A stretch of 64,000 bases of DNA, from the NCBI GenBank assembly GCA_013290125.1, contig JABCYQ010000009.1, positions 1 to 64,000 of the forward strand, given 5' to 3'. Positions 11,941 through 55,490 of this stretch are shown in pieces. A model generated the notes under the pieces. The model saw only the letters and a list, made by a program, of their open reading frames with translations. It searched no databases and had not been told where the DNA came from. The translations under genes were made by a program, and so were the position numbers. This DNA is from Vulcanimicrobiota bacterium. Lineage in GTDB: Bacteria; Vulcanimicrobiota; Vulcanimicrobiia; Eremiobacterales; Eremiobacteraceae. Within the stretch, counting starts at the first letter, position 1. Each line of letters opens with the position of its first letter.

Positions 11941-12024
11941 TGAAGGGGCCGACTTGAAGGGGCCGACGTTAGTCGGCCCACAATCCGCGCTCCAAATATA
12001 TAGGGCGGACCTCTTCGGTCCACC
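11941..12024. repeat. Palindromic repeat copy a (two hairpins) in a convergent gap
   Basis: Begins with a partial direct duplication (TGAAGGGGCCGAC at 11941-11953). Hairpin 1 has the stem GGCCGAC at 11961-11967 and GTCGGCC at 11972-11978. Hairpin 2 is GGACC-TCTTC-GGTCC within 12003-12024. The last base touches the stop codon of the minus-strand gene. The two hairpins in this order, on the opposite strand, are also seen in copy f at 44029-44087. Could act as a bidirectional terminator although it lacks a long T-tract. Confidence 0.8.
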
Positions 12025-20959: not shown

Positions 20960-21424
20960 ATGAATGAATTAGAAGCCCGATTCCCGAGCGCCCCGTCTGC
21001 CGTATGTGCAGCCAGACGGGCAGCGCGTGCATTTGCGCGCCGCTGCGGCTTTGGTCAATGGGAAGTATCCGATATCGTACTGGCAGTCGGCGAAGCCTGC
21101 AACAACGCGGTCGAGCACGCTCACGTGACCGGCGGCCAATTCACGATGCGCTGCCATGATTCCGAAGGCGCGGTCACGTTTGAGATCGAGGACCGCGGCG
21201 GTGGATTCGAACTCGACGGCAAAGGCGCGACGATCTCGCCCAACGAGCGTGGCGTGCGCGGCCTTGGAATATTTCTCATGCGCTGCTTGATGGACGACGT
21301 GCAGTACACAACGAACGATAGCGGCACGACCGTGCGCCTCGTGAAGCGCATGCACCCTGTGAAGACCGCGCCTGAAGGGGCCGACTTCATGTCGGCCCAC
21401 GTTTCGACGCCGGGGCCGATATAA
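20960..21424 (+). CDS. Anti-sigma-factor-type ATP-binding protein (RsbW/SpoIIAB-like HATPase)
   Basis: Small GHKL ATPase of the anti-sigma-factor/serine kinase type. The N box reads VGEACNNAVEHAH (about 38-50), the G1 box DRGGGFEL, and the G2 region RGLGIFLMRCLMDDV followed by GTTVRLVKRM. In known systems such proteins bind a sigma factor or phosphorylate an STAS antagonist; neither partner is adjacent here. The natural domain ends about residue 134. The last ~19 residues (PEGADFMSAH and beyond) are encoded by a palindromic repeat found in several other intergenic regions, so the tail is repeat-derived. Confidence 0.88.
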   Translation: MNELEARFPSAPSAVCAARRAARAFARRCGFGQWEVSDIVLAVGEACNNAVEHAHVTGGQFTMRCHDSEGAVTFEIEDRGGGFELDGKGATISPNERGVRGLGIFLMRCLMDDVQYTTNDSGTTVRLVKRMHPVKTAPEGADFMSAHVSTPGPI

Positions 21425-21439
21425 AATCGGCCCCTTCAG
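21371..21439. repeat. Palindromic repeat copies b1 and b2, head to head
   Basis: Copy b1 (21371-21400) is TGAAGGGGCCGAC-TTCAT-GTCGGCCCAC. Copy b2 (21412-21439) is GGGGCCGAT-ATAAA-ATCGGCCCC followed by TTCA, in the opposite orientation. They fill the convergent gap between the anti-sigma gene and the phosphofructokinase gene and overlap the last codons and stop of the former. Perfect stems of about 8-9 bp. Confidence 0.85.
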
Positions 21440-21464: not shown

Positions 21465-22706
21465 TTACAAGACCTTCGCGGCGGCGGAAAAGCGCCGCGC
21501 GAATTCGGTCGGCGCCAGCCCAACTTTGGCCGCCAGCGGGCCGAGGCGCGGCTCTTCGAGGTCGGCCGCCTCTAACCGGATCGAGTACTTGCGCAGGACC
21601 TCATAGGCCTCGGAGCGCGTATCCAACACTCGTACGCGAATGCGGCCGGTCGCTGGATCGATCATCTCTGCTAACGGCACCGGCGCGACGTGGCCACCAC
21701 GCAGCGCCACCATCGCACCCGAACCCCCGCCGAGCAGATAGCGTACGGCGCCGTAGCCGAGCGTGCGTGTGTATTCGACGTCGAACGGCACCGGCTTGGC
21801 GCAGCGCAGTTCGTACCCGACATCTTTGGTCACGACGCCGATGTTCAGTCGCAATTCCTTGAGGCGCGCCATCACGGTGCTCTTCACAATCGCGCCGAGA
21901 TCGATATCGGATAAGCGGACGTGGCCGTACGGATCGCGTTCGACATCCTTCAAGCCGGTGAGCTCGCGCTCGTCGAGCCGTTCAGCGATGCCTTCGGCGA
22001 CCACCGCAACGCCGTGGTCGGCGCCGCTGGCGCTCCGCTTGATCATGCTGCCGACGATCACGTTCGCGACGAGGTCGAGCGAAGCGCCCGAAGAGACGAA
22101 CTGCTCGGGGATAACGGCGAGCGTCGCACCAGCGGCTTTGGCGATGCCGACCGCCAGCGCGCCCGATTTGCGGCCCATGCTGATCACGATATACCAACGC
22201 TGCGTGGTTCTCGCGTCCTCCATCAGCGTTTCAACGATGCCGGCGCCGACCGCGCGCGCGGTCTCAAAGCCGAACGAAGGCATGTTATCGGGCAGGGGGA
22301 GATCGTTGTCGATGGTCTTCGGCACGGTCGCGACGCGGATCGATCCGCCGGTGGCTTCGGCGATCTTGGCTGCGCCGAACGTCGTGTCGTCGCCGCCGAT
22401 GCACAAGAGGTGCGTGATCCCGAGCTCGCGCAACGCGCCCACGCAATTGGCCAGCGTTTTCTCGTCTTGCGCCGGATTCGTCCGGGCCGTCCGCAAGATC
22501 GAACCGCCCGTCCAATGGATGCGGCTCACGTCCTCGATGCGCAACGACGTCGCGTGCGTGGCGTCGCCACGAGCAAGCCAGCGATAGCCATCGTAGATGC
22601 CGATCACCGAACAGCCTTCGTTGATCGCTTCTATTGCCGCCGCCCCAATGACCCCGTTGATCCCAGGCGCTGGACCTCCGCCGACCAGAATCCCAAGTGT
22701 TGGCAT
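21465..22706 (-). CDS. pfp: 6-phosphofructokinase, pyrophosphate-dependent type
   Basis: Phosphorylates fructose 6-phosphate. N-terminal GGGPAPGIN is the phosphate-donor loop. The donor-discriminating positions read GGDDT and PKTIDND. In this family, Asp after GGD and Lys before TIDND block ATP and mark pyrophosphate use, whereas ATP enzymes have GGDG and GTIDND. The ISMGRKSGALA and PEQF substrate segments follow. 413 residues, the size of mid-length PPi-PFKs. The stop is 26 nt from the repeat pair b. Confidence 0.9.
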   Translation of the reverse strand: MPTLGILVGGGPAPGINGVIGAAAIEAINEGCSVIGIYDGYRWLARGDATHATSLRIEDVSRIHWTGGSILRTARTNPAQDEKTLANCVGALRELGITHLLCIGGDDTTFGAAKIAEATGGSIRVATVPKTIDNDLPLPDNMPSFGFETARAVGAGIVETLMEDARTTQRWYIVISMGRKSGALAVGIAKAAGATLAVIPEQFVSSGASLDLVANVIVGSMIKRSASGADHGVAVVAEGIAERLDERELTGLKDVERDPYGHVRLSDIDLGAIVKSTVMARLKELRLNIGVVTKDVGYELRCAKPVPFDVEYTRTLGYGAVRYLLGGGSGAMVALRGGHVAPVPLAEMIDPATGRIRVRVLDTRSEAYEVLRKYSIRLEAADLEEPRLGPLAAKVGLAPTEFARRFSAAAKVL

Positions 22707-28331: not shown

Positions 28332-28364
28332 CCTGAAGGGGCCGATTTTATATCGGCCCACTTT
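28332..28364. repeat. Palindromic repeat copy c
   Basis: TGAAGGGGCCGAT-TTTAT-ATCGGCCCACTTTT, the same unit as at 11.9 and 21.4 kb with a compensatory C-to-T/G-to-A change that keeps the stem paired. It lies 47 nt past the folK-mptA stop. Confidence 0.85.
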
Positions 28365-28446
28365 TATTTGCTCCGCTATCACCGGCGATTTCGAAAGCCG
28401 GGGCGCCGAAAGGCGAAAGCCGCCGAAGTCGAGCGGCGGAAGTTGG

Positions 28447-28537
28447 TCATCCCGCTTTTCCGCCGCGTCCCCGGCGCGGACATCGGCCGGTGATGCCGGG
28501 GCAATAAAGTGTGGCCGACTAGCGTCGGCCCCTTCGG
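28447..28537. repeat. Palindromic repeat copy d, long (~90 bp) form
   Basis: Begins CATCCCG, continues CCGCGTCCCCGGCG and a CCGGCG/CGGCCGG partial hairpin, then GTGGCCGAC-TAGC-GTCGGCCCCTTC. The whole unit aligns from end to end with 55402-55490 (copy g), at roughly 75-80 percent identity by eye. Opposite orientation to copy c. Confidence 0.8.
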
Positions 28538-44028: not shown

Positions 44029-44087
44029 GGCGAACCAAAAGGTCCGCCCCACAAACAGGTGGGCCGACATAACGTCGGCCCCTTCAG
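44029..44087. repeat. Palindromic repeat copy f (two hairpins)
   Basis: Hairpin 1 is GGCGAACC-AAAA-GGTCCGCC (44029-44048). Hairpin 2 is GGGCCGAC-ATAAC-GTCGGCCC (44061-44081), followed by CTTCA. The order is the reverse complement of copy a at 11941-12024. Lies in the convergent gap between the NirK-like gene and the porin gene. A short duplication (CCTTCAGACGG twice) follows at 44082-44102. Confidence 0.8.
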
Positions 44088-55401: not shown

Positions 55402-55490
55402 ATCCCGATATTCCGTCGCGTCCCCGGCGAAGACGTCGCCGGATGAGGCCTTGGGAAAAAACGTGGGCCGACATAAAGTCGGCCCCTTCA
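55402..55490. repeat. Palindromic repeat copy g, long (~90 bp) form
   Basis: CATCCCG, then CGCGTCCCCGGCG-AAGAC-GTCGCCGG (a hairpin) and GTGGGCCGAC-ATAAA-GTCGGCCCCTTC. Aligns with copy d (28447-28537) over its whole length. Convergent gap between the second M16 gene and a minus-strand exported protein. Confidence 0.85.

Follow-up and report, generated by a model that had tools for sequence, protein, structure and literature searches.

The gene examined here, which encodes an RsbW-like protein, raises the question of how a protein comes to end in the sequence of a dispersed repeat. Within the window, the whole 64,000-nt stretch of DNA that was analysed, its reading frame enters a 68-bp palindrome at C21372 and is ended by a TAA in the second hairpin loop of that palindrome, which bears out the initial annotation of a frame that crosses the palindrome and stops inside the second repeat copy. 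The features of the locus are as follows.

20960-21424, plus strand: gene of the RsbW-like (HATPase_c_2/GHKL) protein, 154 aa, stop codon TAA at 21422-21424
20981-21346, plus strand: complete HATPase_c_2 domain (Pfam PF13581), residues 8-129
21371-21424, plus strand: repeat-made codons P138-I154 and the stop; the first base of the first codon (CCT) is flank
21372-21439, no strand: inverted REP pair (BIME/REPIN), 68 bp
21374-21398, plus strand: first REP, with GAAG head (21374-21377), 8-bp stem and TTCAT loop
21412-21437, minus strand: second, inverted REP, with 9-bp stem, ATAAA loop holding the TAA of the reading frame, then CTTC (the GAAG head on the minus strand)
21465-22706, minus strand: convergent phosphofructokinase-family gene (Pfam PF00365); the REP pair fills the tail-to-tail gap

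The RsbW-like protein and its tail

All 127 positions of the HATPase_c_2 profile (PF13581, 1-127) matched residues 8-129 of the protein with an E-value of 1e-29, and the best solved relative, the RsbW structure 6m36 (PDB), aligned to residues 4-131. The GHKL domain typical of RsbW-type anti-sigma serine kinases is therefore present and, as had been proposed from the sequence, complete before the tail begins. Since the curated RsbW/SpoIIAB models scored far below their cut-offs (NF003144, 74.7 bits against 145; TIGR01924, 61.7 against 155; TIGR01925, 55 against 135), the protein is termed only RsbW-like.

The C-terminal peptide of the protein runs through ...EGADFMSAHVSTPGPI and extends 25 residues past the last lysine of the domain. 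Its repeat-derived part comprises 16 whole codons (E139-I154) and two of the three bases of P138, giving 17 residues (PEGADFMSAHVSTPGPI). The repeat-made nature of the tail was thus upheld, while its length had been put slightly too high at about 19 residues and its start, at 21362, too early; the repeat proper begins about 10 nt further in, at 21372. A peptide of the same type, PEGADFISAH, had been noted in a non-coding copy, and the intergenic half copy at about 28332-28367 does read so in the same frame.

When folded as RNA, the whole palindrome gave -46.6 kcal/mol. Its two hairpins, with stems of 8-9 bp, gave -18.1 and -18.7 kcal/mol and are short palindromes in the 20-50 nt range expected of REPs.

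The repeat family and its transposase

The alignment of recovered copies comprised at least 42 full-length palindromes together with some half copies. The consensus of the REP pair was CTGAAGGGGCCGAC-TTTAT-GTCGGCCC-linker-GGGCCGAC-ATAAA-GTCGGCCCCTTCAG, and the unit of the family is CTGAAG followed by GGGCCGAC-TTTAT-GTCGGCCC. The units occur mostly as inverted pairs with a variable linker; such pairs accounted for 49 of 85 clusters, and the inversion is visible in the copy alignment. Of the three frames through the REP pair, one is closed immediately by the TGA of CTGAAG, another reaches a stop in the second loop, and the third, with no stop anywhere in the consensus, is open (EGADFMSAHVTFARADIKSAPS). 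The RsbW-like gene uses the open frame, and because its linker differs in length from the consensus, this frame reaches the TAA of the second loop.

To count the copies, a one-hairpin pattern with two mismatches allowed was matched to both strands of the genome (G000) and of two congeners (G001 and G002), with the reversed pattern as control. The pattern gave 399 strand matches (207 + 192) in G000, a figure that exceeds the number of hairpins because one hairpin can match on both strands, against 23 (12 + 11) in G001 and none in G002; the reversed control gave none. The family thus shows the high-copy, species-specific amplification of REPs. Elsewhere, a DNA search of 40 relatives turned up no more of the GAAG family than traces, in G012 and G013. 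A second, GTAG-headed family gave 318 strand matches in G001, 49 in G000 and 5 in G002. With at least 42 full-length copies, and 399 strand matches against none for the reversed control, the palindrome in the reading frame is not a product of chance.

Further copies were present within the window:

11955-11985, no strand: hairpin copy, intergenic
about 28332-28367, no strand: half copy that reads PEGADFISAH in frame, intergenic
about 28503-28536, no strand: inverted half copy with a different loop, following the previous one
44055-44087, no strand: half copy, intergenic, between convergent neighbours
55450-55490, no strand: half copy, intergenic, between convergent neighbours

At 28333-28536, the two half copies lie about 135 nt apart with unrelated DNA between them, where a short linker is usual.

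The setting of the copies was analysed in a sample of 151 hairpins, picked by repeat similarity and from the first contigs rather than at random, with genes called by a simple codon-usage caller whose single calls carry error. Nearly all of these hairpins (146, 97%) were intergenic; four, forming two pairs, fell within the 3' ends of genes, and the last was at a questionable gene start. Where the genes on both sides were called (83 clusters), 46 clusters were in a convergent, 31 in a same-strand and 6 in a divergent setting, and the median distance of a cluster to a gene 3' end was 31 nt. The convergent setting was enriched relative to the adjacent gene pairs of the window (46/83 against 10/51; Fisher p 6e-5). 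The copies thus have the extragenic location and the preference for 3' ends that characterize REPs.

The genome contains one Y1_Tnp gene, a RAYT of 170 aa (G000:C26:229-741), which passed the NCBIfam model NF047646 (REP_Tyr_transpos, REP-associated tyrosine transposase) with 91.8 bits at a cut-off of 80. It is preceded by four direct hairpins, TGAAGGGGCCGAG-TTTAT-CTCGGCCC, and followed by three inverted hairpins, all of the GAAG family, as expected of a cognate RAYT. Together, the GAAG hairpins and the RAYT between them bear the signature of a REP family and its transposase. The RAYT itself ends in REP sequence of its own downstream hairpin (...SGGIGIKGWADIKSAPSSVNSSGQTFGPT; L094, G000:C26:1-4000, ORF 229-741). 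The RAYTs of relatives end about 5 residues after the G-x-(L/V)-D motif, some 20 residues earlier.

These properties match those of the known REP/BIME/REPIN systems with their RAYT (TnpA_REP): a short, GC-rich hairpin whose 5' foot bears a conserved tetranucleotide, inverted pairing, copies in the hundreds in intergenic DNA and at gene 3' ends, and a RAYT between inverted hairpins (PMC2817692, PMC3116915, PMC8266576). The family differs from them in its head, which is GAAG preceded by CT and not GTAG or GTGG; the GTAG family of G001, which flanks the RAYT of that genome, is canonical. The tetranucleotide is most often GTAG, so that a GTAG or GTGG head is a usual rather than a strict feature of REPs (PMC8266576). 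In the published cleavage model, CT is selected via A3 and G4 of the head (PMC8266576). Most copies carry CT directly before GAAG, and by analogy with that model GAAG would retain the A3 and G4 needed for the choice of CT. The GAAG family adjoins the RAYT of G000 (L094:1-180), and the RAYTs of G001, G002, G004 and G006 adjoin hairpins with GTAG-type ends.

Orthologs and other gene ends

A relative of the RsbW-like protein was present in all 41 genomes searched. The initial annotation had regarded the tail as an addition, possibly made after loss of the original stop, a view at odds with any similar tail in orthologs that lack the repeat. No PEGADFMSAH-type tail was found in any ortholog in the 41 genomes, both congeners included. 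Orthologs were also expected to stop earlier, and those of the two congeners do: past the last domain lysine, G001 (80% identical) has 7 residues, ending in KRAHPAPM, and G002 (64% identical) has 11, ending in KRSPHRHLNEAV, against the 25 found here. Across the wider family, tail length ranged from 5 to 51 residues; the last part of the longest tails (48-51 residues, in G003, G009 and G010) overlaps the convergent phosphofructokinase gene in antisense.

The closest ortholog makes an imperfect control. In G001, the stop codon of the gene is the TAG of a GTAG-headed REP, a member of another family, which heads an array of four units. With a REP of its own at the end, the RsbW-like gene of G001 gives no view of the empty site, and only G002 is repeat-free at this gene end among the two congeners. 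In two sister species, the same gene end has thus been remade, in each by its own dominant REP family. When the flanks of the repeat were rejoined without it, all nine junctions stayed open for at least 40 codons. Given this result and the variable tails in the family, the repeat may either have lengthened a short tail or have capped an open frame. For the proposed addition, the repeat origin of the tail, its position beyond the domain and its lack of a counterpart in orthologs therefore stand; an original stop may have been lost, which would fit the genus, and the insertion may not have been a clean one into an unchanged gene end.

The sampled hairpins of the GAAG family overlapped seven gene ends. 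Two of these use the open frame, that of the RsbW-like gene and that of an acetyltransferase gene (G000:C40, L069), which ends in KKLSEGADFMSARQTKRGPT in the same REP frame; the orthologs of the latter in the congeners (88% and 59% identical) end in VFVKPIRRT and VFLKRF. Of the two, the acetyltransferase gives the cleaner example of extension. The other five genes have the TGA of the GAAG-family head as their stop codon. This frame use departs from one third weakly at best (p 0.045), and we base no claim on it. For one ortholog pair, both stops are REP-derived and come from different families: the G000 gene (L230) stops at the TGA of the GAAG family, and the G001 gene (L231) at the TAG of a GTAG-type hairpin, GGCGCGCC-TTTAT-GGCGCGCC.

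Origin of the tail

The palindrome is very probably a REP pair of a species-amplified family, most likely spread through the genome's own RAYT, that inserted at the end of the RsbW-like gene and left a tail most likely near-neutral. In this course of events, the family would have been amplified in the species by the RAYT that its genome encodes, and one REP pair would have inserted, probably as single-stranded DNA beside a CT, into the short gap between the convergent genes, either just upstream of the RsbW-like stop codon or across it. The RsbW-like frame would then have entered the REP pair in its open frame and run to the TAA of the second loop, placing 17 repeat-encoded residues behind the finished ATPase domain. 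No close relative showed the empty site of this gene, so we infer the insertion from the distribution of the repeat. Given how freely the RsbW-like protein varies at its C-terminus within the family, the tail is most likely near-neutral, and nothing found in the analysis pointed to a function for it.

It is distinctly less probable, though a reading to be taken seriously, that the repeat capped a frame that was already open and ran antisense into the phosphofructokinase gene, so that the present tail would replace a longer one. The long overlapping tails of G003, G009 and G010 are consistent with this, as are the open codons in all junctions tried after removal of the repeat from the window. 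The congeners, which are closer relatives, have short tails, however, and the gene of G002 stops without any repeat. A rather improbable alternative is that the palindrome serves as a transcription terminator, dispersed between convergent genes and acting in both directions, whose overlap with coding sequence is incidental. Strong hairpins, the position at gene 3' ends and the enrichment between convergent genes would suit such a role, but the RsbW-like locus has no terminator-like site with a T run, the consensus past the hairpin being ACGTT, and a scan of the site for a sigma-70 promoter or an intrinsic terminator found neither. The species-specific amplification and the RAYT linkage point instead to a mobile element, whose hairpin may nonetheless terminate transcription as a side effect.

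Selection for the tail or for the in-coding hairpin is very unlikely. It might, for instance, tune expression of the anti-sigma-type protein by ribosome stalling, an effect reported in E. coli for REPs within 15 nt of a stop (as cited in PMC12306157), or place a shared peptide (EGADFMSA) on several proteins, and recurrence of the frame in the acetyltransferase argues for it. Against this, no more than two of the sampled gene ends use the open frame, in unrelated proteins of a single species. We give little credence to the idea that the stop-free frame of the GAAG family (EGADFMSA...) is recurrently added to the C-termini of unrelated proteins, with the tail or in-coding hairpin being kept for tuning the protein level. 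An error of assembly or base calling that creates the frame is scarcely to be expected either. The draft genome comprises 55 contigs, and a single indel upstream of the repeat could shift the gene into the TGA frame, which stops at once; on the other hand, typical reads are longer than the 68-bp element, the frame of the domain remains unbroken as far as the repeat, and the acetyltransferase is an independent locus with the same frame.

The favoured reading, insertion of a mobile REP pair, places the locus among known cases. In Coxiella burnetii, the mobile palindromic element QMITE2 lies in frame at the 3' end of enhC and gives the last 33 residues of EnhC, and a 3'-end bias of such overlaps has been described (PMC5896051). 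The likeness is that of an in-frame mobile element supplying a C-terminus, but QMITEs, as MITEs that carry terminal inverted repeats, are longer, and they are not RAYT-linked REPs. The Rickettsia palindromic elements, as described in PMC3733652, are likewise palindromic repeats translated in unrelated proteins; according to that description they decorate reading frames internally and in numbers, whereas 97% of the copies sampled here were intergenic and the coding cases lay at gene ends. Intragenic GTAG/CGTC REPs that supply stop codons have been reported (PMC3733652); here it is instead the open frame of a GAAG family that adds a 17-residue tail, and the immediate stop in the other frame is TGA. 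The repeat-encoded protein end is thus real, but a known side effect of such repeats. Because stop codons and protein ends supplied by REPs have already been published, the RsbW-like tail is a further instance, a clear example of REP amplification rewriting gene ends that leaves the general picture unchanged. RAYT-linked REPs are hereby documented in this lineage, one family with a GAAG head; this head, a RAYT with a REP-encoded end and the presence of different families at the same gene in sister species are the modest new points.

Stop codons were also supplied by the GTAG family in G001, where five sampled genes take theirs from its ATG-TAG. All five (L098, L148, L157, L162 and L229) end in Met (ATG TAG), which suggests that the AT before GTAG may belong to the outer end of the element in this family. 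The RAYT gene of G003 (L186) ends in ATG-TAG followed by a hairpin, and its stop may be REP-derived too.
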